Assembly (NCBI GenBank): GCA_025655595.1
Contig: JAHXIO010000019.1
Location: 1-64,000 of the forward strand
Origin: Candidatus Thiodiazotropha sp. (ex Monitilora ramsayi)
GTDB taxonomy: Bacteria > Pseudomonadota > Gammaproteobacteria > Chromatiales > Chromatiaceae
DNA: 64,000 nucleotides
Reading direction: 5' to 3'
The translations under genes were made by a program, and so were the position numbers. The notes below the pieces were generated by a model, which saw only the letters and a program-made list of their open reading frames with translations, did not search any database and was not told the origin of the DNA. Positions 53,678 through 63,984 of the stretch are shown piece after piece (within the stretch, counting starts at the first letter, position 1; each line of letters begins with the position of its first letter).

Positions 53678-55399
53678 ATGAGTGACAGAATCGTCGTTGA
53701 TCCCATCACGAGAATCGAGGGGCATCTGCGTATAGAGGCCCAGATGGAGGGTGACCGGATCGCCAGCGCCTATTCATCGGGAACCATGGTTCGCGGCATT
53801 GAGGTGATACTCAAGGGCAGGGACCCGCGTGACGCCTGGGCCTTCGCGCAGCGTATCTGCGGGGTCTGCACACTGGTACACGGCCTTGCTTCGGTCCGGT
53901 CGGTTGAAGACGCCCTGAACTATCAGATCCCGCAGAATGCCCAGCTTATTCGCAATCTGATGATCGGCGCCCAGTACATCCACGATCACGTAATGCACTT
54001 CTACCATCTGCACGCGCTGGATTGGGTCGATGTGGTATCGGCGCTCTCCGCCGATCCGGCCAAGACCTCCGAACTGGCCCAGTCGCTCAGTAACTGGCCG
54101 AAGTCCTCGCCGGGCTACTTCTCCGACATGAAGAAGAAGCTGAAAGGTTTTGTCGATGCCGGGCAACTGGGTATCTTCGCCAAGGCCTACTGGGGGCACT
54201 CGGTCTACAAGCTGCCGCCGGAGGCCAATCTCATGGCGGTGGCCCACTATCTGGAAGCCCTCTCCTGGCAGCGCGATGTGGTGAAACTGCATGCCATCTT
54301 CGGCGGCAAGAATCCCCACCCCAACTTTCTGGTTGGCGGTGTGGCATCTCCTATCGATCTCAACTCCGACTCCGCCATCAACAGCAAGAAGCTGGCGCAG
54401 GTGCAGGACGTAATCACCAAGATGCGTGAGTTTACCGATCAGGTCTACGTACCCGATACGCTCGCCGTTGCCAGCTTCTACAAGGATTGGGGCGAGCGGG
54501 GCGAAGGGCTGGGTAACTTTCTCTGCTACGGCGACCTGCCGATGACCTCGATGGACGATCCCGACAGCTTCTTCTTCCCGCCGGGTGTAATCCTGGATCG
54601 GGATCTGTCGACCATCCATCCCCTCGATCTCAACAACGCGGATGAGATCCAGGAGCAGGTGGCTCACTCCTGGTACGACTACAGCGTCGGCAAGGAGCAG
54701 GGACTGCATCCCTACGACGGCGAGACCAATCTCAACTACACCGGACCTGAGCCTCCTTACAAACAGTTGGATGTGGAGGACTCCTACTCCTGGCTGAAGT
54801 CACCCCGCTGGAAGGGTAAATCAGTTGAAGTGGGACCCCTGGCCCGTGTCCTGATGCTCTATGCCAACGGACATGAACAGACCCAGGAGCTGGTCAACAT
54901 GACCTTGAGTCATCTGGATCTGCCGACAAGGGCGCTTTTCTCAACCCTTGGCAGAACAGCGGCCCGTACCCTGGAGACAAAGATCCTGGCCGATGCCATG
55001 CAGGGTTGGTACGACCAGTTGATCGCCAACATCAAAGCGGGGGATACCAAGACCTTCAACGAGACCTTGTGGGATCCCTCCACCTGGCCAAAACAGTGTC
55101 AGGGCGTCGGTTTCATGGAAGCGCCTCGCGGCGCACTCGGCCACTGGATCGTGATCGAGAACGGCAAGATCGCCAACTACCAGGCGGTGGTGCCCAGCAC
55201 CTGGAATGCCGGACCCCGCGACGCCCAGGGACAGGCCGGTGCCTATGAAGCCGCCCTGCAGGACAACCACCAACTGGCCGATGCCAAACAGCCTGTGGAG
55301 ATACTGCGTACCATCCACAGCTTTGATCCCTGTATCGCCTGTGCTGTTCACCTCTCTGACGAAGAGGGTGAAGAGATGTTGCAGGTGAAAGTGAAATAA
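53678..55399 (+). CDS. hynL: [NiFe] hydrogenase large subunit, Isp type
   Basis: The 573-residue catalytic subunit that splits H2. The N-terminal motif RICGVCTLVH gives nickel ligands Cys61 and Cys64. The C-terminal DPCIACAVH gives Cys552 and Cys555, with His558 the probable cleavage site; a 15-residue tail would be removed by HupD. DPITRIEGHLRIE is the typical start. ATG 53678 has AGGAGA 10 nt upstream; the frame is open from 53642. A clear terminator follows, so this is the last gene of the unit. Confidence 0.97.
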   Translation: MSDRIVVDPITRIEGHLRIEAQMEGDRIASAYSSGTMVRGIEVILKGRDPRDAWAFAQRICGVCTLVHGLASVRSVEDALNYQIPQNAQLIRNLMIGAQYIHDHVMHFYHLHALDWVDVVSALSADPAKTSELAQSLSNWPKSSPGYFSDMKKKLKGFVDAGQLGIFAKAYWGHSVYKLPPEANLMAVAHYLEALSWQRDVVKLHAIFGGKNPHPNFLVGGVASPIDLNSDSAINSKKLAQVQDVITKMREFTDQVYVPDTLAVASFYKDWGERGEGLGNFLCYGDLPMTSMDDPDSFFFPPGVILDRDLSTIHPLDLNNADEIQEQVAHSWYDYSVGKEQGLHPYDGETNLNYTGPEPPYKQLDVEDSYSWLKSPRWKGKSVEVGPLARVLMLYANGHEQTQELVNMTLSHLDLPTRALFSTLGRTAARTLETKILADAMQGWYDQLIANIKAGDTKTFNETLWDPSTWPKQCQGVGFMEAPRGALGHWIVIENGKIANYQAVVPSTWNAGPRDAQGQAGAYEAALQDNHQLADAKQPVEILRTIHSFDPCIACAVHLSDEEGEEMLQVKVK

Positions 55400-55435
55400 C
55401 CAACTAACAACAGCACGACAATACATGGGTGTTGG

Positions 55436-55470
55436 GCCTCTGTCCGTTAGGGCAGGGGCTTTTGTTTTTA
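55436..55470 (+). terminator. Intrinsic terminator after hynL
   Basis: A 10-bp stem (GCCTCTGTCC with GGGCAGGGGC, two G-U pairs) and a GTTA loop are followed by TTTTGTTTTT. It lies 37 nt after the hynL stop and ends the hydrogenase unit. Confidence 0.88.
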
Positions 55471-55473
55471 TCG

Positions 55474-55965
55474 GTGTCAACTAAAAAAACACGACAGTGA
55501 GTATAAATATGTCGACGGCGATTCTAAAAACGTCGGTGGTGACTTAAATCATCTTGTTGTTGACTAACAATGCGTCGGCAATGATATGAAACAGCTCGAC
55601 GGTGACTATAAATGAGTCAACAATGACTCTAAACAACCGGATGCTGATTTAAGAAAGAGTCAACGATGACTCGAATCAACCCAACAATGATTAAAAAAGA
55701 GTCAGCAGTGAGTCGAGATACCCCGACAATGCCTGGAAAAGAGTCGGCAATGAGTCGAATCATCCCGCCATTGAGAAAAAGAGAATAATCGGTGAGTTGA
55801 ATCAACCCGACGTAGAAAGAAATAGTGTCATTGCCGAGTTCAGAGAGTCTCTCAGCTGATTGTTTTTTAGTCATTAGTGACTAAAAAGAAGTTAATCATG
55901 ACTTCTATCAAGTCACCATTGAGTTATTTTTTATCGACAGTGATTGAAAAAGTGTGATTGGTGAG
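55474..55965. repeat. Degenerate 42-bp tandem repeat array
   Basis: About eleven diverged units follow each other with a period of 42 bp. The clearest unit starts are at 55530, 55572, 55614, 55657, 55699, 55741 and 55781. Each unit is built of two related halves, about 23 nt (GAGTCAACAATGACTC then GAATCAA) and about 19 nt (CCCGACAATGATT then A-rich). Several first halves are dyads of GAGTC and GACTC 6 nt apart. Read on the minus strand, three units form a 14-residue repeat in an 81-codon open frame (55629-55874), which I regard as non-coding. No known element is recognised. Confidence 0.75.
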
Positions 55966-56224
55966 CAAAACAAACCCATTAGAGCAGGTCTGATATCCCC
56001 GTATTCCCCAATTTCGAGTAGAGCGATATCCAATGTCATCAATCCGGGTTGGGAAATAGAATGATACATTCCTCTCATGTAGGAAATTGACTACAGACAT
56101 ACTGCTACGTTTCTGGCATCTTTGGGTAAGGTTATGATAAATAGAAAGTAAATAGAGTCATTCACGATGATCTCTAGGATTTCTAATCAATTCAAGGAAG
56201 GCGTTAAGATGAGAACTTTTTTCC
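55966..56224. other. AT-rich non-coding stretch
   Basis: Between the tandem array and the first small gene of the accessory region, no gene or RNA is supported. GGCGTTAAGATGA near 56201 resembles the end of an attC site but has no left partner. Confidence 0.35.
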
Positions 56225-56277
56225 ACATAACGCAATATTTGTGACGTCTACATAATCACCTGTTACATGTCTTAGGA
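56225..56277 (+). repeat. Weak attC-like site 1
   Basis: ACATAAC (56225-56231) could be the left core and CTTAGGA (56271-56277) the right core. GTGA and TCAC form a short inner stem. The right core merges into the AGGAG ribosome site of the next gene, as at 60094 and 61515. The site is short and imperfect. Confidence 0.3.
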
Positions 56278-56285
56278 GAATTTTT

Positions 56286-56510
56286 GTGGAACCTGAATTG
56301 TTGGCAGACAAATTAAAGGAAATGTATTTTAATTCGGATGAAGGAGAGACCGCAGTTTCTATACATCTTTTCGGCATTAAATATGCGGCCGAAATAATGG
56401 AATGTGGTGCATCACCTAAGCAATTAGCAAAGCTGGCAGGCGTACCTGAAACTTATGGTACTGAAATCAACAAAGGCCGAAATCTGGCTAAATATGTGAA
56501 ATTGAAATAG
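56286..56510 (+). CDS. Small HTH-like protein
   Basis: A 74-residue protein starting at GTG 56286, with AGGAGA 7 nt upstream. The C-terminal half looks like a helix-turn-helix: SPKQLAKLAGVPETYGTEINKG, split here as SPKQLAKLAG and VPETYGTEINKGRN. The N-terminal half includes AVSIHLFGIKYAAEI. It resembles small HTH-like proteins found near defence and mobile genes, but I cannot name the family with certainty. It opens the run of plus-strand accessory genes and is AT-richer than the hydrogenase genes. Confidence 0.7.
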   Translation: MEPELLADKLKEMYFNSDEGETAVSIHLFGIKYAAEIMECGASPKQLAKLAGVPETYGTEINKGRNLAKYVKLK

Positions 56511-56663
56511 AGCCTGAGTGTATTTAGGCTGATAGGGGGGATAGGTCAGGGCTCGATTCCCTGGGCGTTTGTTGGCTCCATAGCCCTACTGCTGTTTTTA
56601 CTGCGTTATTATTGCCACATGTTGATTCTATCTTTCAACGGCAACAGTATTAAGGAGGTGTCT

Positions 56664-56768
56664 ATGGTTAAAACATTAATTGCTCGTACTCAGGTTTTTT
56701 TAAGTTCTGTATTGGAAACAATCTGGGCTATAGGAGTCGGCAACGTTGGTGGTCACCTATCAACCTAA
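56664..56768 (+). CDS. Possible 34-residue small protein
   Basis: A short frame with an unusually good ribosome site: AAGGAGGTG ends 3 nt before ATG 56664. The product reads MVKTLIARTQVFLSSVLETI, then WAIGVGNVGGHLST. It ends 11 nt before the attC-like site at 56780, the place where a cassette gene should end. It is moderately hydrophobic and might be membrane-active. Too short for family recognition; it is equally possible that it is a leader peptide. Confidence 0.4.
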   Translation: MVKTLIARTQVFLSSVLETIWAIGVGNVGGHLST

Positions 56769-56779
56769 GTGCATTTACC

Positions 56780-56846
56780 ATGTAACAAGAGCCTGCATAG
56801 AATTCCAGCCGCTGCGCGGCTTTCACCTGTGAGGCTGGCGTTATGC
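56780..56846 (+). repeat. attC-like recombination site 2
   Basis: The right core GTTATGC is at 56840-56846 and the left core ATGTAAC at 56780-56786. L-box-like arms AGCCT (56790-56794) and AGGCT (56832-56836) pair with an extrahelical base. The centre is a perfect hairpin, AGCCGC/GCGGCT (56807-56821). The 67-bp length fits attC. Confidence 0.65.
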
Positions 56847-56864
56847 GAATGGAGAGAATTAGCG

Positions 56865-57461
56865 TTGGATAAATTTGAAGCTGTTAGGTTTTATGGTCTT
56901 GCTAGTAATTTTTGGCAGCTTACTCTAAACGTTGCTGAGGAATTGATCGAACGTGGAAACCCTAGTTCGATGTCGTATGAGGGATGGGGCTGGCCTAGTG
57001 ATGAAGAGTATGAAGAACACACGAAATGGTCTGATCTAAATATAATTGAACCAACTTTATTTAACTTTTATCACGGCATAGAGTTAAGCCTAAAATCTCT
57101 GATCTTAGCCAAAGAAGAAGAATTAAAAAATGATCATAAACTCTCCAATCTACTAACCATAGTAAAGGAATTGTATGGAGCTGTAGGCTTTGTAGAATTT
57201 TACGAAAAATATATTTATCAGAAAAAGCTTCCAGAGGTTATCAACAACTTTTGTCGAGAAACTGGAATGACAATGGATCTTTACTTTCAAAGCTTGAAAT
57301 ATCCAACAAGCACTAAAGGCCATGAGTTTAACCATTCATCATTGAGAGCCTTAGATGATATCGGTGTTACTCTATTTCAAGAAATATCAGAAGATTTAAG
57401 GTCGGCTAGAAAAGAAGTGCAAAAATACATTGCTAGCGAGTGCAGCGATGTTCTCGCATAA
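56865..57461 (+). CDS. HEPN-like hypothetical protein (cassette gene)
   Basis: An all-helical protein of 198 residues from TTG 56865, with GGAG 11 nt upstream. The frame is open further upstream, but that part runs through the attC-like site. Central LFNFYHGIELSLKSLILAKEEE and HKLSNLLTIVKELY resemble the HEPN fold of RNases and nucleotidyltransferase partners. The catalytic RxxxxH motif is not seen, so RNase activity is doubtful. Its stop codon TAA lies inside the left core GCATAAC of the next attC, a cassette hallmark. The HEPN reading is tentative. Confidence 0.7.
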   Translation: MDKFEAVRFYGLASNFWQLTLNVAEELIERGNPSSMSYEGWGWPSDEEYEEHTKWSDLNIIEPTLFNFYHGIELSLKSLILAKEEELKNDHKLSNLLTIVKELYGAVGFVEFYEKYIYQKKLPEVINNFCRETGMTMDLYFQSLKYPTSTKGHEFNHSSLRALDDIGVTLFQEISEDLRSARKEVQKYIASECSDVLA

Positions 57462-57524
57462 CAAACAGCTGCAGCGGATCAATTTACGCTGCGCTTCAAT
57501 TGCCCGCTGAGCTGGTCGTTATGC
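57456..57524 (+). repeat. attC recombination site 3 (best match)
   Basis: The left core GCATAAC (57456-57462) and right core GTTATGC (57518-57524) are exact reverse complements. Inside, AGCT and CAGCGG pair with CCGCTG and AGCT, leaving a single extrahelical G on the left arm, which is the canonical attC polarity feature. CAATT and AATTG extend the central stem. The length of 69 bp is typical of attC. Confidence 0.85.
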
Positions 57525-57536
57525 AGCTAAACAACC

Positions 57537-58271
57537 ATGAAATCAATTCTCTTTGAGAAAGCGGCAGACATATTGGATCTCGCTTCTGACAGCGATTATC
57601 AGGTGCTCGATTTTGGATGCGGAAATGGAGAATTGCTAGGAACTCTTTCTGGAAGGGTCGGGACAAGGTCACGCTTAGTGGGATACGATGCAATGGAGAA
57701 ATCCATTGCAATTGCGCAGGCACGCCATCCGAATGCAGAGTTCATCTGCGAGCGATTTGGCGAAGAATTGCCGTTCCCAGATACCTCGTTCGATGTGTTT
57801 GTGACTGTTGACACACTGGAATGTATCAAGAACAAAGAGGCGCTGTTAGCTGAGATTCATCGCGTTCTAAAGCCTGGCGGGGAAATCCTCGCCATGCACT
57901 GGGACTGGGATACACAGACATACAATATCCCAACCCGAGATCTTGCCCGGAAGGCCGTACGGGCCTTTTCCGACTGGAAACAACCGTGGATGGATGAGGC
58001 GGACGGCCAAATGGGTAGGAAGTTGTGGGGGTTGTTCGAGGGTAGTGGAAAATTCCATGGAAGCTCTGATGCTTTTTGCTTGATCGAGACCGAGTACGAA
58101 GCCGGGCAGTATGGCTACGACCGCGCGCGAGACTTATCCGGGCTGGTTGAAGCTGGAGAGTTCGATGAGGGAGAATACAAGCAATTTCGCCGCGAGCTAT
58201 CCGAAAGTCATCAAGGAGGGGAGTATTTCTATAGTGTCACATCCTTTGTCTATCACGGGCGGCGAGCATAA
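57537..58271 (+). CDS. Class I SAM-dependent methyltransferase (cassette gene)
   Basis: A 244-residue methyltransferase. The SAM-binding motif I is VLDFGCGNGELLG at about 23-35. It is followed by LVGYDAMEKSI with the acidic ribose ligand, a motif near FDVFVTVDTLECI, and LKPGGEILAMHW. The C-terminal part has a Trp/Tyr-rich substrate region (WDTQTYNIP). Substrate unknown; small molecules are plausible (Methyltransf_11 type). The start is 12 nt after attC 3, and the stop TAA sits within GCATAAC, the left core of the next site. Confidence 0.88.
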   Translation: MKSILFEKAADILDLASDSDYQVLDFGCGNGELLGTLSGRVGTRSRLVGYDAMEKSIAIAQARHPNAEFICERFGEELPFPDTSFDVFVTVDTLECIKNKEALLAEIHRVLKPGGEILAMHWDWDTQTYNIPTRDLARKAVRAFSDWKQPWMDEADGQMGRKLWGLFEGSGKFHGSSDAFCLIETEYEAGQYGYDRARDLSGLVEAGEFDEGEYKQFRRELSESHQGGEYFYSVTSFVYHGRRA

Positions 58272-58296
58272 CCATCGGCTGAGCCGTTCGTTAGAG
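58266..58296 (+). repeat. Collapsed attC-like site 4
   Basis: GCATAAC (58266-58272) and GTTAGAG (58290-58296) flank only 17 nt, in which CGGCT and AGCCG would be the inner L-box arms. The whole central stem of a normal attC is missing. It looks like an internal deletion that joins two cassettes. Confidence 0.5.
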
Positions 58297-58320
58297 GCGA
58301 TAAACAGAGTACATACGCAG

Positions 58321-58659
58321 ATGGATGAAATACAAATAGATAGCTTCAGACAGCAGTTGCTCGAGCTGCGGTCAGAACTCATAAATCTAAGCAGCACGTC
58401 TGACGACGCAGCAAAGCCTGTGGAACTGGATCAATCAGCCGTTGGCAGGCTCAGTCGAATGGATGCGATGCGTGCGCAAGGCATGGCAATTGAAGCAAAA
58501 GGACGGCGTGAAGACCAGCTCTTAAGAATTGAGGGCGCATTGCGTCGAATTGCCGCTGGTGATTATGGCGTCTGCCTCACGTGTGGGGAAGAGATAAACA
58601 TCCGCAGACTAGAGGTGGATCCTACTTACACTCAATGCATCATGTGTGCGGATAAATAA
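58321..58659 (+). CDS. DksA/TraR-family zinc finger protein
   Basis: A 112-residue protein with the four-cysteine zinc finger CLTC and CIMC separated by a helix (GEEINIRRLEVDPTYTQ), as in TraR and DksA. The N-terminal two thirds form a helical hairpin (MDEIQIDSFRQQLLELRSEL). The tip residues, SAVGRLSRMDAMRAQGMA, resemble small DksA-like proteins that bind RNA polymerase. The DxxDxA tip of DksA is only partly kept. ATG 58321 gives the family start; the frame is open upstream through the methyltransferase. Role in transcription is family inference. Confidence 0.87.
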   Translation: MDEIQIDSFRQQLLELRSELINLSSTSDDAAKPVELDQSAVGRLSRMDAMRAQGMAIEAKGRREDQLLRIEGALRRIAAGDYGVCLTCGEEINIRRLEVDPTYTQCIMCADK

Positions 58660-58663
58660 TAGC

Positions 58664-58750
58664 TTATAACAAGCCGTTAAACCCGCTCACTTCACACTCT
58701 AGGATGTGTCACAGCTACACTGCATCGTGTCTGTTAACGCAGCGTTATTT
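58664..58750 (+). repeat. attC-like recombination site 5
   Basis: The left core TTATAAC (58664-58670) begins 5 nt after the zinc finger gene. CGTTAA and TTAACG form L-box-like arms, and GCGTTATTT (58742-58750) ends the site with an imperfect right core. Inner CAC and GTG repeats allow a stem. Length is 87 bp. Confidence 0.55.
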
Positions 58751-58771
58751 TTATATAGAAGGAATTCAGCA

Positions 58772-59224
58772 ATGAACATTTATAAAGGAATGGTCGCTCT
58801 TCTGGCCATCTTGGCTATCGTCGGATGCCAATCCAATCAAGCAAAAATGGATCCAGCCGTTCGAATGTCAGTTAAAACGGTTGCAATTGTTGCCTCAGAT
58901 CAACTTCCTGAAGAGATCTTCTATATGGGTTCAGAGCATGCATTTAGTGTTGCACTTGGAGGCGTGGTCGGGGCGCTAATTGCCCAAGGTGCTAGTACCA
59001 CGGGTGAGAAAATCGATATGCACCTTAAGCAAAACGTCGATATGCCTAGTATTTACAGGTCACAATTCATCGAAGTCTTCAACAAGAATAATCCACACAA
59101 TATGAGGATAGTTACCGAAGAAGAGGCAGATGCCGTGATTACTCTTGTAATAACTCGTTACGGCTTCGGTAAGGCAAACGCTTTTGCAAGCAACCTCAGG
59201 CCTCTCTTATTATCGGTGGGATAA
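58772..59224 (+). CDS. Lipoprotein, N-terminal part of a frame-disrupted gene
   Basis: This frame encodes 150 residues from ATG 58772, which has GAAGGAA upstream. The N-terminus is a lipoprotein signal: LLAILAIVGCQS, with Cys19 as the lipidation site. The body contains KTVAIVASDQLPEEIFYMG, then GGVVGALIAQGAS, resembling outer-membrane-associated lipoproteins of unknown function. The frame ends in a stop at 59222 directly before a second frame whose product continues the protein (59227-59412). The two look like one gene broken by a one-base shift near 59195-59220. Confidence 0.7.
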   Translation: MNIYKGMVALLAILAIVGCQSNQAKMDPAVRMSVKTVAIVASDQLPEEIFYMGSEHAFSVALGGVVGALIAQGASTTGEKIDMHLKQNVDMPSIYRSQFIEVFNKNNPHNMRIVTEEEADAVITLVITRYGFGKANAFASNLRPLLLSVG

Positions 59225-59226
59225 AG

Positions 59227-59412
59227 ATGCAAGAAAAGTCTGGAAACATTATCTGGAGCGATGGTGCATCGGTTAGCCCACTGAACTCAGATATTTATGG
59301 AACAGACATCGAGAGCTATTTTAGAGATCCAGCGAACTTCGAACGGTCACTTTCCAGTGCGTTCAAATCAATCTCGGAAGAATTGGTTCAAAAGCTAAAT
59401 AATAATACATAA
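59227..59412 (+). pseudogene. C-terminal part of the frame-disrupted lipoprotein gene
   Basis: A 61-residue frame beginning MQEKSGNIIWSDGASVSP. It is open upstream to overlap the end of the preceding frame, where it would read SLIIGGIKMQEKSG. No ribosome site precedes ATG 59227. The product fits as the continuation of the lipoprotein: a W-containing strand followed by a C-terminal helix (ERSLSSAFKSISEELVQKL). Its stop TAA lies in ACATAAC, the left core of the next attC-like site. Either a real frameshift or a sequencing error could explain the split. Confidence 0.55.
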
Positions 59413-59496
59413 CAAGGTGCTCACTACGCTCACTATCGTTCACTGGGACAGCCTACGTACGCTGCGCTCTGGCTACCCGTTACCACAAAGTTAAGT
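59407..59496 (+). repeat. attC-like recombination site 6
   Basis: The left core ACATAAC (59407-59413) contains the stop codon of the preceding frame. The right core GTTAAGT (59490-59496) matches the GTTRRRY consensus. An inner stem forms between GGGACAGCC and GGCTACCC with one mismatch. The 90-bp length is within the attC range. Confidence 0.6.
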
Positions 59497-59550
59497 GTCA
59501 GAACAATAAGTCATATATTTAAAAAGATACGAATCTTAAGGAAAATATTC

Positions 59551-59925
59551 ATGATAAAAATTTCAGTGAGTATTGATGTCTCAGACCTGAAGCAGGCGGA
59601 GAGCTTTTATATAGAAGCTCTAGGTTGTAAAAAACTTAGAGATCAAGGCTCAGATATGTCTGTTCTTTCTACAGATAATTGCGATATATATCTCCAGGAA
59701 AAAGAAGCTGGAAGCAAGCCTCTCGTATCAGATGAAGTTGTCCGTGATTATAAGCGTCATTGGACTCCTGTTCATTTGGATTTTCTAACAGAGAATGTTG
59801 ATGAGATTGTCAGAAAAATACTCCGGTTAGGTGGTTTACATGAAGGCGGAGAAAGTGGGGATTGGGGGTCTATTGCTTATTGTGCAGACCCATTCGGTAA
59901 CGGTTTTTGTGTGATCAATGAATGA
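59551..59925 (+). CDS. VOC-family (glyoxalase-fold) protein (cassette gene)
   Basis: A 124-residue protein with the two babbabb modules of the vicinal oxygen chelate fold. VSIDVSDLKQAESFYIEALG opens the first. WTPVHLDFLTENVDEIV opens the second, with its metal-site His, and it ends DPFGNGFCVINE with the final Glu. The third ligand position is not clear. Members include glyoxalases, dioxygenases and antibiotic-binding proteins, so function is open. AAGGAAAA lies about 10 nt upstream of ATG 59551. One of three VOC domains within 2.8 kb. Confidence 0.85.
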   Translation: MIKISVSIDVSDLKQAESFYIEALGCKKLRDQGSDMSVLSTDNCDIYLQEKEAGSKPLVSDEVVRDYKRHWTPVHLDFLTENVDEIVRKILRLGGLHEGGESGDWGSIAYCADPFGNGFCVINE

Positions 59926-59998
59926 TACAAATAGTAATCAGGGTTAACGCGTCAATTATTCTATCTTAAAAAACAATTAGTTATGATATTAAAAAAAC

Positions 59999-60100
59999 AC
60001 CTAACAGTGCTATCAGCATGGACATCAAAAAGCTACGCATCGCTTCGCTTTTTGCCTCCGGTTATGGCAGGCGATATACACTAAATTTTCATTATTAGGA
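59999..60100 (+). repeat. attC-like recombination site 7
   Basis: The left core ACCTAAC (59999-60005) matches RYYYAAC exactly. A central stem pairs CAAAAAGC with GCTTTTTG. The right core appears to be ATTAGGA (60094-60100), whose AGGAG serves as the ribosome site of the next gene. The outer arms pair only partly. Confidence 0.5.
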
Positions 60101-60107
60101 GCAGTTA

Positions 60108-60479
60108 ATGGAAACATATGAAAAAGGCGTTGCTCAGTTAGTAGCTATGCTCGGTGAGGAAGGAGCGGGAGAAATAGCCAGAAAGTTCTATGATTTAAGT
60201 CCTGCGTTTGAAAGGGAAGCTGTTTCTGTAGTATTTGGCCGTACTTGGTCAAGAGATCAGATCGATTTAAAAACAAGGTCTCTTTGCAGTATTTGTATAC
60301 TTGCATCACTAGGTCGAATAAATGCGCTAAAGATCAACTTTACTCTAGCAATTCAAAATGGCGCAACTAAAGAGGAAATTGTTGAAGTTCTGTTACAAGT
60401 TGCTGTTTATGCAGGCTATCCGGCCGCGCTTGATGCCTTGGCAACATTCAAAGAAGTTATTGGTGATAGCAATACATAG
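60108..60479 (+). CDS. Carboxymuconolactone decarboxylase-like protein (cassette gene)
   Basis: A 123-residue helical protein of the CMD/AhpD superfamily. The pattern AFEREAVSVVFGRTWSRDQIDLKTRSL, then AIQNGATKEEIVEVLLQVAVYAGYPAAL, matches gamma-carboxymuconolactone decarboxylase-type proteins. The redox CxxC of AhpD is not in place (CSICILAS has a C-x-x-C but without the following His). No aromatic-degradation genes are nearby, so a generic or stress role is as likely. AGGAG lies 8 nt before ATG 60108, within the right core of attC-like site 7. Confidence 0.87.
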   Translation: METYEKGVAQLVAMLGEEGAGEIARKFYDLSPAFEREAVSVVFGRTWSRDQIDLKTRSLCSICILASLGRINALKINFTLAIQNGATKEEIVEVLLQVAVYAGYPAALDALATFKEVIGDSNT

Positions 60480-60505
60480 CTGGGCTAGGCACAATCACCT
60501 TATAG

Positions 60506-60706
60506 ATGTTGTTTGTTCTCAGAAATGGACACGATGGTATGGCTCGGGCTGAATTATGCGGAGGAGAAAATGGAGATATCAACATATATATAATAAATAG
60601 CGTGAATCTTCCTGATGCAGAATCTATAGAGTTTAGGTCCGTGAGTCATCCTGTCAATTATCAAGATAAAAAATGTGAATATACTAGCAATGTAAATATA
60701 GATTAA
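60506..60706 (+). CDS. Doubtful small hypothetical protein
   Basis: A 66-residue frame that ends just before a weak attC-like site. It has no clear ribosome site at ATG 60506; another in-frame ATG lies at 60536. The sequence (for example DAESIEFRSVSHPVNYQDK) has ordinary composition but no recognisable family. Its place at the end of a cassette is the only support. Confidence 0.3.
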   Translation: MLFVLRNGHDGMARAELCGGENGDINIYIINSVNLPDAESIEFRSVSHPVNYQDKKCEYTSNVNID

Positions 60707-60760
60707 TTACTTTCACTCGTTCGACGCACAGTCTCGAGCGGCTTATTTTCAACGTTATCT
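60706..60760 (+). repeat. Weak attC-like site 8
   Basis: GTTATCT at 60754-60760 resembles a right core, and CTCG and CGAG pair inside. The left core is not convincing. It is placed where a site is expected, between two accessory genes. Confidence 0.25.
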
Positions 60761-60845
60761 TGCATTGTCAGGTTTGTGTCGTTACCAACCTTAGAATGAT
60801 ATGACATAGTGCGAATTTTATGATTACCCGATGAGGTGACACAGT

Positions 60846-61439
60846 GTGATAAAGGAAATTCGAACTTCTAAGGGCTGGACACAAGAGCAACTGGCTCAGT
60901 TTAGCGGGCTAAGCATTAGAACAATTCAGCGTATTGAGCGTGGGCATAATGCAGGGTTAGAGTCGTTAAAGTGTCTCGCTGCGGTATTTGATATGGACCT
61001 GTCAGAATTACAAAATGAGAGTTGCACTGGGAGTGAGCTCTTCCTGGGTGCTGACCCAATTTTACCGGTTAAAAGTGTTAATGAGACCGCTAAGTTCTAT
61101 AAGGAAGCATTAGGGTTCGAAATAGAGATACTTTGGAATACACCTCCTTACGCAGTTGTTGCTAGGGATAGAACAATTATCGAGTTTGGAGAAGGAAGAA
61201 AAGAATACGCTGGTACTGGTGTTTGCGTAATCTTTGTGAATGATGTGGATGCGGTTTATAAGGAGTATTCAGATAAGGATGTAGAGTTCTTTGGGGATAT
61301 AGCAAATCGTGACTACGGCAGTCGTGATTTCCGCATAAAAGATAATAACGGCAACGTTTTGATATTCAGTAGCCCTCTGATTAATCAGAAGGAGTTAATC
61401 GATGCTGGAAACTCCGTCAAAAGGAAAGCGGTAAGTTAA
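60846..61439 (+). CDS. XRE DNA-binding domain fused to a VOC domain (cassette gene)
   Basis: A 197-residue two-domain protein. Residues about 3-58 form an XRE-type helix-turn-helix (TQEQLAQFSGLSIRTIQRIERG), split as WTQEQLAQFSGLS and IRTIQRIERG. Residues about 66-180 are a VOC fold (LPVKSVNETAKFYKEALGFE, GVCVIFVNDVDAVY, IKDNNGNVLIFSSP). It could be a ligand-responsive transcription factor. GTG 60846 is the likely start, with GAGGTG 8 nt upstream. The stop TAA lies inside AGTTAAC, the left core of the next attC-like site. Confidence 0.88.
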   Translation: MIKEIRTSKGWTQEQLAQFSGLSIRTIQRIERGHNAGLESLKCLAAVFDMDLSELQNESCTGSELFLGADPILPVKSVNETAKFYKEALGFEIEILWNTPPYAVVARDRTIIEFGEGRKEYAGTGVCVIFVNDVDAVYKEYSDKDVEFFGDIANRDYGSRDFRIKDNNGNVLIFSSPLINQKELIDAGNSVKRKAVS

Positions 61440-61521
61440 CTAGACTAGACTGGTATCACTCGGAAACCGAAAAGTACCGCTTCGCTCTACTTTTTGGTTC
61501 CGGTTAATTTCGACATTAGGA
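61434..61521 (+). repeat. attC-like recombination site 9
   Basis: The left core AGTTAAC (61434-61440) holds the stop codon of the XRE-VOC gene. A long central stem pairs CGGAAACCGAAAAGTA with TACTTTTTGGTTCCGG, allowing small mismatches. The right core is ATTAGGA (61515-61521); the following GG completes an AGGAGG ribosome site for the next gene. Confidence 0.55.
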
Positions 61522-62413: not shown

Positions 62414-62680
62414 TTAGCGGCGTCTGCCACCACGACCTTTTTTAGGGTTGTTAATCCCTACACCGATGGTACTGCCGTCAATGCTTTTTCCATCAAGCGC
62501 GCTTATGGCGGCACGGCCTTCATGTCCTTCCATTTCGACGGTGGCGAAGCCTTTGCACTCGCCTGAGAATATATCTTTAACAAGTTTGATTGAGCGCACT
62601 GCGCCATAGGTGGAAAAGAGGGAGGTTACGCTCTCTTCAGTGGATGAGCGCGGAAGGCCACGCACGAATATCGTTATCAA
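62414..62680 (-). CDS. RNA-binding protein, single RRM
   Basis: An 88-residue RRM protein. RNP2 is IFVRGL at 4-9 and RNP1 is KGFATVEM at 43-50, in which one aromatic residue of the usual pair is replaced. The C-terminus is basic and glycine-rich (KKGRGGRRR). It lies 114 nt downstream of the cold-shock gene on the same strand, and could be co-expressed with it at low temperature. The two are separated by a hairpin at 62749-62772, so read-through would be partial. Confidence 0.92.
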   Translation of the reverse strand: MITIFVRGLPRSSTEESVTSLFSTYGAVRSIKLVKDIFSGECKGFATVEMEGHEGRAAISALDGKSIDGSTIGVGINNPKKGRGGRRR

Positions 62681-62748
62681 TGATCTGGCCTGTTTTGAGC
62701 GCCGGGAAAACGCGTTTGCCGGCTATGTGTGGTGTCGAATCAACGAAA

Positions 62749-62772
62749 TTGGGCTTGCCGAAACAAGCCCAA
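62749..62772 (-). terminator. Hairpin after the cold-shock gene
   Basis: TTGGGCTTG (62749-62757) pairs perfectly with CAAGCCCAA (62764-62772) around a 6-nt loop. On the minus strand it is followed by TTTCGTT. It is probably a modest intrinsic terminator 23 nt after the csp stop. Confidence 0.6.
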
Positions 62773-62794
62773 AATAGAGATTGCTGGATAGCTG

Positions 62795-63004
62795 CTACAA
62801 AGGGACAACTTCGTTAGCCTGGGGTCCTTTCGCGCCTTCAGCCTCGACGAACTCGACTTGTTGACCTTCGGTCAGGGACCGGTGTCCCTCGCCAACGATC
62901 GAGCGAAAATGAACAAAAAGATCTTTGCCGTTTTCACGGGCGATAAATCCATAACCTTTTGCACTGTCGAACCATTTGACAGTTCCGGTCTGTTTTTCAG
63001 ACAT
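62795..63004 (-). CDS. CspA-family cold-shock protein
   Basis: A 69-residue OB-fold RNA chaperone. RNP1 KGYGFI is at 16-21 and RNP2 LFVHF at 29-33, with [11 protein letters not shown] at the start and [15 protein letters not shown] at the end, all typical. It binds single-stranded RNA and DNA and melts secondary structure. A gap of about 400 nt upstream could contain the long 5' leader that such genes use for cold induction. Confidence 0.96.
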
Positions 63005-63420: not shown

Positions 63421-63984
63421 ATGAGTCAACAGCGTGAAATCAATGTCTGGGACCCGCTGGTAAGGCTGTTCCACTGGACGCTGGTGGGAGCGTTTACCGT
63501 CGCCTGGCTCACCGAGGATGAGTGGATGACGCTGCACAGCTATGCCGGCTACCTGATTATGGGTCTGCTGCTGTTCCGCCTTTTCTGGGGGGTTGTCGGT
63601 CCCCGGTACGCCCGTTTCAGCGACTTCGTCAAGAAGCCGGATACCGTCCTGGGTTATCTGAAGGATCTGACTGTCCTGCGGGCAAAGCGCTATATCGGCC
63701 ATAACCCTGCCGGCGGAGCGATGATCGTTGCATTACTGCTATCGCTGTTAGTCACCACGTTGACCGGCTTGCTGGCCTATGGCGCTGTGGGTTCGGGGCC
63801 GCTCTCCGGGTTTTTACCCGTGAGTTTTGGGTATGGCAGCGAATGGATGGAGGAGCTGCATGAGTTTTTCGCCAATTTCACCCTGCTACTGGTGGTGATC
63901 CATGTGGGTGGGGTGGTCTTCGAGTCACTGTTCCATAAGGAGAATCTGGTTCGCTCCATGTTCACCGGCACCAAGCGGGCCTGA
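63421..63984 (+). CDS. Cytochrome b561-type membrane protein
   Basis: A 187-residue integral membrane cytochrome of the bacterial cyt b561 / Ni-Fe hydrogenase b-type family. Four hydrophobic helices are seen. Candidate heme ligands are His in VRLFHWTLVG, LHSYAGYL, ELHEFFANF and LVVIHVGGV, the standard four-position pattern for two hemes. It transfers electrons between a soluble donor and quinone. GGGAGAAT lies 5 nt upstream of ATG 63421. Although related to hydrogenase cytochromes, it lies 8 kb from the hydrogenase and a soluble c-type partner may be outside the window. Confidence 0.9.
   Translation: MSQQREINVWDPLVRLFHWTLVGAFTVAWLTEDEWMTLHSYAGYLIMGLLLFRLFWGVVGPRYARFSDFVKKPDTVLGYLKDLTVLRAKRYIGHNPAGGAMIVALLLSLLVTTLTGLLAYGAVGSGPLSGFLPVSFGYGSEWMEELHEFFANFTLLLVVIHVGGVVFESLFHKENLVRSMFTGTKRA

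Follow-up and report, generated by a model that had tools for sequence, protein, structure and literature searches.

The usual picture of an integron is one of a single integrase, a single attI site and a single array of cassettes, and clusters without an integrase are held to be off-target insertions, relics or rearrangements. How an array comes to stand without an integrase is the question raised by a locus in Candidatus Thiodiazotropha sp. (ex Monitilora ramsayi; assembly GCA_025655595.1, 4.68 Mb in 46 contigs), located in the first 64 kb of contig JAHXIO010000019.1 (C8), the stretch that was analysed and that is referred to here as the window. A run of small plus-strand genes, separated by attC-like sites, is flanked there by a hydrogenase large-subunit gene on one side and by a cytochrome b561-like gene on the other. 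As the original prediction for this DNA had proposed, no integrase gene (intI) accompanies them: none was found in the window by a TIGR02249 search of the genome or by tblastn with 24 IntI proteins (E<0.001). The predicted host, a hydrogen-oxidising gammaproteobacterium, also agrees with its assignment to the Gammaproteobacteria, in the genus Candidatus Thiodiazotropha, and with its hydrogenase genes.

Judged by its attC sites the array is real, and, since it contains two or more attC sites and does not lie near an intI, it conforms to the definition of a cluster of attC sites lacking an integron-integrase (CALIN). Of the features of a complete integron, it has an attI site at its head and lacks an adjoining intI. 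The window probably holds an integrase-less integron, made up of a leader, an attI site and a partly decayed plus-strand cassette array, which would be one of about a dozen such platforms in the genome and would be loaded in trans. In what follows, G000 is the source genome, other G-numbers are related genomes, C denotes a contig, and L-numbers are stretches cut from these genomes.

An attI site heads the array

Genes for N-terminally extended IntI proteins in Candidatus Thiodiazotropha and its relatives are preceded by a conserved site with two or three direct repeats and the core CTGTTA. A sequence-only model of this attI (R2, 94 positions) was derived from ten intI-adjacent sites in ten relatives, eight of them members of the genus and none of them G000. 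This type of attI is not confined to the genus, because two of the ten training sites (from G024 and G039) come from outside it. At E<=0.001, R2 finds a match in all 16 genus members, G000 included, and in none of eight genomes from other families of the same class.

In the 64 kb of the window, the sole R2 match up to E=5 is a shorter form of the site at the head of the array (Table 1), of the type that flanks the extended intI genes; 56225, where the array had originally been taken to begin, falls within it. Cassette 1 begins exactly at the core of this attI with GTTACAT, the partner of which, ATGTAAC, is present in the attC at 56780. The original prediction had offered a CALIN or the far end of a chromosomal integron. 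The first label fits, whereas the second has to be given up, since the array opens with an attI whose core is the exact start of cassette 1. A sigma-70 scan for a cassette promoter (Pc) across 55380-56400 returned seven weak matches, where 2.7 would be expected; two of the seven lie on the plus strand, either at the array head or behind it.

Dispersed attI platforms in the genome and its relatives

The attI of the window has many counterparts. R2 has at least 19 matches in G000 at E<=1 and at least 16 at E<=2.4e-4, one of which (on C14) lies beside intI; as many as 20 or more are found in a single genome. Up to 92 of the 94 model positions are aligned at other platforms, and 44 of 94 in the window. 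Sites of attC were sought with a covariance model (R1) trained on 25 sites that lie within about 20 kb of intI genes in other genomes, with none from G000. Of 36 hand-picked sites, 18 passed the pairing rule and seven more, whose right spacer is 5 nt long, were included manually; the alignment was built from joined left and right attC arms rather than from whole sites. Genome-wide counts with both models are lower bounds, the best candidates of each genome, at most 150, having been scored.

The survey of platforms covered 47 attI sites without intI (15 in G000, 19 in G005, four each in G002 and G004, and five in G015), with intI-adjacent sites excluded and attC matches accepted at E<=0.05. On the same strand and within 3 kb downstream, attC was found at 18 of the 47 (nine in G000, six in G005, two in G002, one in G004 and none in G015). 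The same distance yielded attC at none of the 47 sites downstream on the opposite strand, and at none upstream on either strand. For G000 taken by itself the figures are nine of 15 sites, the window's included, and zero in the other three quadrants.

The junction between attI and the first cassette points the same way as it does in the window. Eighteen platforms entered this comparison (12 from G000, five from G005 and one from G018), and one from G005 was dropped as no GTT was found, leaving 17. The set omits C1:156k, C6:29k, C4:356k and C1:119k, which have R2 matches at E<=2.4e-4 and no attC match, and includes the weak C9:2.7k (E=0.009). At 11 of the 17 platforms (9/12 in G000) the first attC arm pairs exactly with the seven bases of the attI core, against about one under shuffled pairing, and of three more platforms in G002 and G004, two gave the same result.

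The absence of intI from these sites is not explained by contig breaks, because G004 is a single contig and has at least four R2 attI sites, each at least 90 kb from its three intI genes. Arrays with intI-less attI are present too in G002, which is in 10 contigs. The existence of attI-headed arrays without intI is well supported.

Some individual sites may be recorded here. On C10 (L121) of G000, an attI at 57908-57999 follows, at a distance of about 0.9 kb, another gene that resembles a hydrogenase large-subunit gene and is 32% identical to the G018 hydrogenase. In the DNA upstream of attI in L100, L111 and L109, the platforms of C9 and C26 have in common an opposite-strand gene, some 360-940 bp away from attI, that encodes a protein containing MSQNLI; the platform at C4:91k shares DNA of this gene region with C9. 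The flanks of the C9 platform are not conserved. Matches to attC with no R2 attI in front are found in G000 on C24 and at C6:244-246k, C1:0-6k, C7:76k, C5:67k, C5:350k, C4:164k and C3:277k, three of these places being at contig ends.

A leader shared between platforms

In eight G000 platforms, the attI match is preceded, about 110-125 bp upstream, by a common leader whose motif parts have a fixed spacing, which begins with an operator-like palindrome and whose similarity has a sharp left edge at TGTAGG. A 20-nt pattern drawn from it (GTAGGAAn3GnCTACAGAC, up to two mismatches) has 11 matches in G000, versus five for the reversed control pattern. Seven of the eight exact matches lie before an R2 attI, the exception being C2:24179, and of the three inexact matches only that on C12 does so. 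Among single genomes for each of 84,980 species, a collection possibly without G000 itself, the strict pattern has 12 matches, all of them in three sister metagenome-assembled genomes (MAGs), and every one of the 12 precedes an attI on the same strand, two of these attI sites being partial matches. In the window, degenerate 42-bp tandem repeats stand upstream of the leader, and similar sequence occurs upstream of several other G000 platforms. We infer that the leader would provide or control the expression that is otherwise given by the intI region.

Integrases and proposed loading in trans

The search for intI in the rest of the genome that the original prediction had suggested yields two genes, both on other contigs. 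In the whole-genome TIGR02249 search, the two matches above the cut-off of 265 bits lie near the ends of contigs C14 and C2 and score 439.6 and 406.5 bits, respectively. Both proteins are about 460 amino acids long, with about 145 additional N-terminal residues, a form also found in several relatives. The two extensions are 41% identical over 95 residues and have no Pfam match at E<=0.001. The attI of the C2 integrase is missed by the R2 search, the site being more divergent. The end of C14 and the start of C2 share 91 bp corresponding to the start of a cassette, which is the first behind the C14 attI and the second behind the C2 intI.

Upstream of 18 attI sites, where between 1.5 and 4 kb of sequence were available, tblastn with the 24 IntI proteins (E<0.001) detected neither intI nor its remains, and it is because of this result, together with the whole-genome search for intI, that an action in trans is proposed. 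IntI made from C14 or C2 would insert cassettes at the dispersed attI sites, and such loading by an integrase made elsewhere is likely.

Traces of cassette movement are found at these platforms. A 1.43-kb HEAT-repeat cassette is 99.2% identical between the intI-less arrays at C4:91k of G000 and C2:653k of G005, where the hydrogenase DNA of the two genomes, taken as a yardstick, is 87% identical; the identity runs from one core to the next, that is, between recombination junctions, and the flanks are unrelated. In the case of C1:119k (G000) and C2:181k (G005), the 1.8 kb upstream are 93% identical up to attI and are followed by different sequence, a pattern that cassette turnover at a resident attI would give. 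Directly behind the former attI lies a pair of genes of a cyclic-oligonucleotide-based antiphage signalling system (CBASS), a SMODS cyclase and a SLATT_6 two-transmembrane effector (L096:248-2148, about 117.2-119.2 kb), and other content lies behind the latter. As a separate observation, a stretch of about 800 bp that lies behind an intI-less array on C5 of G000 (L105:5254-6056) is 97% identical to DNA between the array end and cytochrome b561 in G018 (L091:2314-3114).

Cassettes and attC sites of the window

Sites with attC cores and inner stems had been described at six places in the array, an attC being marked by cores of the forms RYYYAAC and GTTRRRY, by inner boxes and by an extrahelical base. 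The covariance-model search proposed at that time, carried out here with R1, scores three of them (57456, 56780 and 58664), and 57456-57524, singled out as the best, has the highest score. The remaining R1 matches in the 64 kb are two, with E=0.35 and 0.67. The search gave no match at 59407, 59999 and 61434, which by eye are decayed attC sites; for instance, the right cores of the last two read GATATAC and ATTAGGA versus the consensus GTTRRRY. All four stop codons said to lie inside left cores do so, the TAA at 57459, 58269, 59410 and 61437 sitting in GCATAAC, GCATAAC, ACATAAC and AGTTAAC, respectively. When the bottom strand is folded and compared with shuffled sequence, 57456 (z=-4.4) is the only one of the three scoring sites that stands out, 56780 (z=-0.75) and 58664 (z=-0.16) folding no better than shuffled; the remnant at 58266-58296 has z=-2.4.

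The first bases of a cassette should be the partner of the left core in the attC that ends it, and by this independent test of identity cassettes 1, 2 and 3 agree at 7/7 positions and cassette 4 at 5/7. The 31-nt remnant that ends cassette 3 is in effect a mini attC, with its loop nearly gone and the match of its left core to the cassette start kept. A relative of cassette 4, 89% identical, is found 2.3-2.8 kb downstream of an attI without intI in G005. The first open reading frame (ORF) of probable cassette 5 has no Pfam match. Inside cassette 1, the 15-nt sequence GATAGGGGGGATAGG (56531-56545) is identical to part of the attI region of the same-locus integron of G018 (E=0.014) and matches at 14/15 positions in G005; it may be a chance match or a relic, and carries no weight here.

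Table 1. Features of the window and the integrase genes of the same genome
Feature	Position	Strand	Details
Hydrogenase large-subunit gene	ends 55399		named by eye, no family search
Terminator-like hairpin behind hydrogenase large-subunit gene	55434-55461	+	
Degenerate 42-bp tandem repeats, upstream of leader	55603-55811	.	
Leader element, operator-like	56079-56122	+	GTAGGAAn5CTACAGACA-n12-TnTGnCATCTT
attI, shorter form	56223-56266	+	model positions 49-92 of 94; R2 29.5 bits, E=4.2e-8; core G/TT between 56262 and 56263
Cassette 1	56263-56840	+	HTH_73 gene 56286-56510; 34-amino-acid ORF by eye; start GTTACAT vs attC arm ATGTAAC, 7/7
attC of cassette 1	56780-56846	+	R1 26.6 bits, E=6e-5
Cassette 2	56841-57518	+	HEPN-like gene, barely over Pfam cut-off
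attC of cassette 2	57456-57524	+	R1 44.5 bits, E=3.6e-10; both core boxes, both inner boxes, extrahelical G
Cassette 3	57519-58290	+	methyltransferase gene 57537-58271
Remnant of cassette 3 attC	58266-58296	+	31 nt; left core matches own cassette start 7/7
Cassette 4	58291-58744	+	DksA/TraR zinc-finger gene
attC of cassette 4	58664-58750	+	R1 23.3 bits, E=6e-4
Probable cassette 5	58745-59490	+	two ORFs, by eye; ends in decayed attC 59407-59496
Probable cassette 6	59491-60073	+	glyoxalase-like gene; ends in decayed attC 59999-60079
Candidate cassettes	60108-61521	+	carboxymuconolactone decarboxylase-like gene, helix-turn-helix (HTH)-glyoxalase gene, decayed attC-like site 61433-61521
Cytochrome b561-like gene	63421-63984		named by eye, no family search
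intI genes of G000	C14 (L009:7239-8627), C2 (L010:669-2063)		full length

History of the locus

The relatives compared include the sister MAGs G005 (JAHXIQ), G014 (JAHXHT) and G018 (JAHXIP), titled Candidatus Thiodiazotropha and classed in the Gammaproteobacteria, family Sedimenticolaceae; the hosts named in their titles we take to be clams. G000 groups with G005 and G018 in the hydrogenase tree and with G018 and G014 in the cytochrome b561 tree, each with support 1.0. In the eight relatives examined at this locus, 0.2-0.9 kb of DNA without an array separates the hydrogenase gene from that for cytochrome b561, and these loci (L083-L090) contain no R1 attC match up to E=1. The original prediction had named a gene order fixed in all related genomes as grounds for rejecting a cassette array. 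The order is not fixed, the array being absent from these eight and two sisters having an intI of their own at the spot. The intergenic DNA of these relatives shows no alignment to that of the window by which the exact ends of an insertion could be placed.

Behind the hydrogenase gene of both G018 and G005 stands a minus-strand intI of standard length (329 amino acids each), with a different attI region, and the similarity of G000 to both genomes stops at 55463. In the case of G018, intI is followed by an array on the plus strand that has eight R1 matches, and attC-like sites are seen by eye on the cytochrome side, with one weak R1 match (E=0.21). For G005, intI stands behind a duplicated hydrogenase end and the contig runs on for about 100 bases beyond the first junction before it stops; a search of this genome for cytochrome b561 gave no match. 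The duplication (L081:3900-5480) places two copies of the end of the hydrogenase large-subunit gene around an inserted gene with a PEP-CTERM-like end, as seen by eye. The spot, then, has been home to integrons in this clade: the sisters carry a different IntI and attI there, and G000 an integrase-less platform, which may have replaced the type of the sisters or have arrived independently. Between the array of the window and cytochrome b561, at 62414-63004, lie minus-strand ORFs resembling an RNA-binding protein and a cold-shock protein, and their counterpart in G005, 71% similar in DNA, is on a different contig.

Alternative explanations

Several observations weigh against dispersed platforms that are loaded in trans. 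The exact core match fails for six of the 17 first cassettes, and attC within 3 kb was found at none of the five intI-less attI sites of G015 and at one of the four of G004. The intI-less attI sites of G000 (E<=2.4e-4) score 23-61 bits versus 77.8 bits for the site beside intI. The attI of the window is shorter than intI-adjacent sites and the distal half of its array is decayed, such that this copy may be inactive. At least 38 attC matches are present in G000 (E<=0.05): 20 follow an R2 attI at a distance of up to about 7 kb, and the other 18 have no R2 attI in front of them; for nine of these 18 (on C24, at the end of C6 and at the start of C1) the head would fall past the contig end. The assembly is fragmented, recombination is deduced from sequence rather than observed, and a given attI subtype may be recognised by one IntI or the other.

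In addition, the arrays could have been loaded by cis integrases that were later lost, each array being what is left of an ordinary integron after in-place deletion of its intI, with cassettes acquired long ago. The two sisters with an integron at the window locus are consistent with this, as are the decayed distal sites of the window and the lower scores of intI-less attI, and passages of a review give intI loss as one of three origins of CALINs (PMC8618304). However, a remnant of intI was found at none of 18 sites in the 1.5-4 kb available, and eight sites have one common leader at the flank where intI would be expected, an agreement that independent deletions of intI would not produce. The intI genes at the window locus in G005 and G018 are of standard length with another attI region, and a 99%-identical cassette in two intI-less arrays points to recent loading. 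In-place deletion is accordingly unlikely, though it stands ahead of the other alternatives. A further possibility is that a leader-attI unit was copied with its cassettes by a mobile element or by gene conversion, with no present part for IntI. The sharp left edge at TGTAGG and the 20 or more attI matches in a genome would be expected of such copying, but C1:119k and C2:181k have a common upstream sequence to attI and differ thereafter, and the exchanged HEAT-repeat cassette is bounded by recombination junctions. This makes copying decidedly improbable.

Off-target insertion of cassettes at non-classical attG sites, which are reported in passages of PMC12444791 and in the title of a reference in PMC11023631, is disfavoured by the match of the head site to attI: it aligns to 44 of 94 model positions, other platforms reach 92, and a leader precedes it. 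The chances of this route are very slight. An assembly artefact, with intI lost in a contig break or a collapse, is brought to mind by the two intI genes of G000 at contig ends that share 91 bp, but the window is continuous from hydrogenase to cytochrome b561, and intI-less attI arrays are found also in the single-contig G004 and the 10-contig G002; it is hardly to be credited. Loading in trans remains the probable reading of the window. A satellite form of integron, in which one or two integrases serve at least a dozen dispersed intI-less attI platforms, many with a dedicated leader, is a broader proposition, with prospects just short of even.

Relation to known integrons and implications

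Passages of the literature attribute CALINs to off-target insertion, intI loss and rearrangement (PMC8618304), and describe their cassettes as mobilisable in trans (PMC12444791, PMC9668308). In the open-access literature searched, through titles, opening lines of abstracts and passages, no attI-headed array without an integrase is described, and a passage of PMC9024848 states that IntegronFinder does not detect attI outside class 1. The arrays of Candidatus Thiodiazotropha resemble CALINs in having attC sites and cassettes with intI not nearby. However, CALINs are defined by attC alone, whereas the arrays here begin with an attI that can be recognised as such, and many of them share a leader. 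Sedentary chromosomal integrons are likewise chromosomal, with attI followed by cassettes in one orientation, but here there is no cis intI, and there are many short arrays in place of one large one. The Delta-attI-type cassettes of mobile integrons, as presented in PMC12901181, also place attI outside the usual intI-attI arrangement, yet those attI pieces sit in cassettes of mobile integrons, whereas here attI heads chromosomal arrays. The CALINs of Xanthomonas at fixed loci away from intI are similarly integrase-less arrays at conserved places, although an attI or leader is not mentioned in the passages of PMC12444791 that deal with them.

Many intI-less attI heads, a common leader and a recently exchanged cassette together provide a concrete further route to CALINs, and one that can be simply assayed. 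If the satellite form is true, captured genes would be spread over many places in the genome, including the hydrogenase locus of the window and the attI with the CBASS pair directly behind it. The findings also suggest that some of the CALINs in other bacteria could be classed anew by searches that take attI into account.

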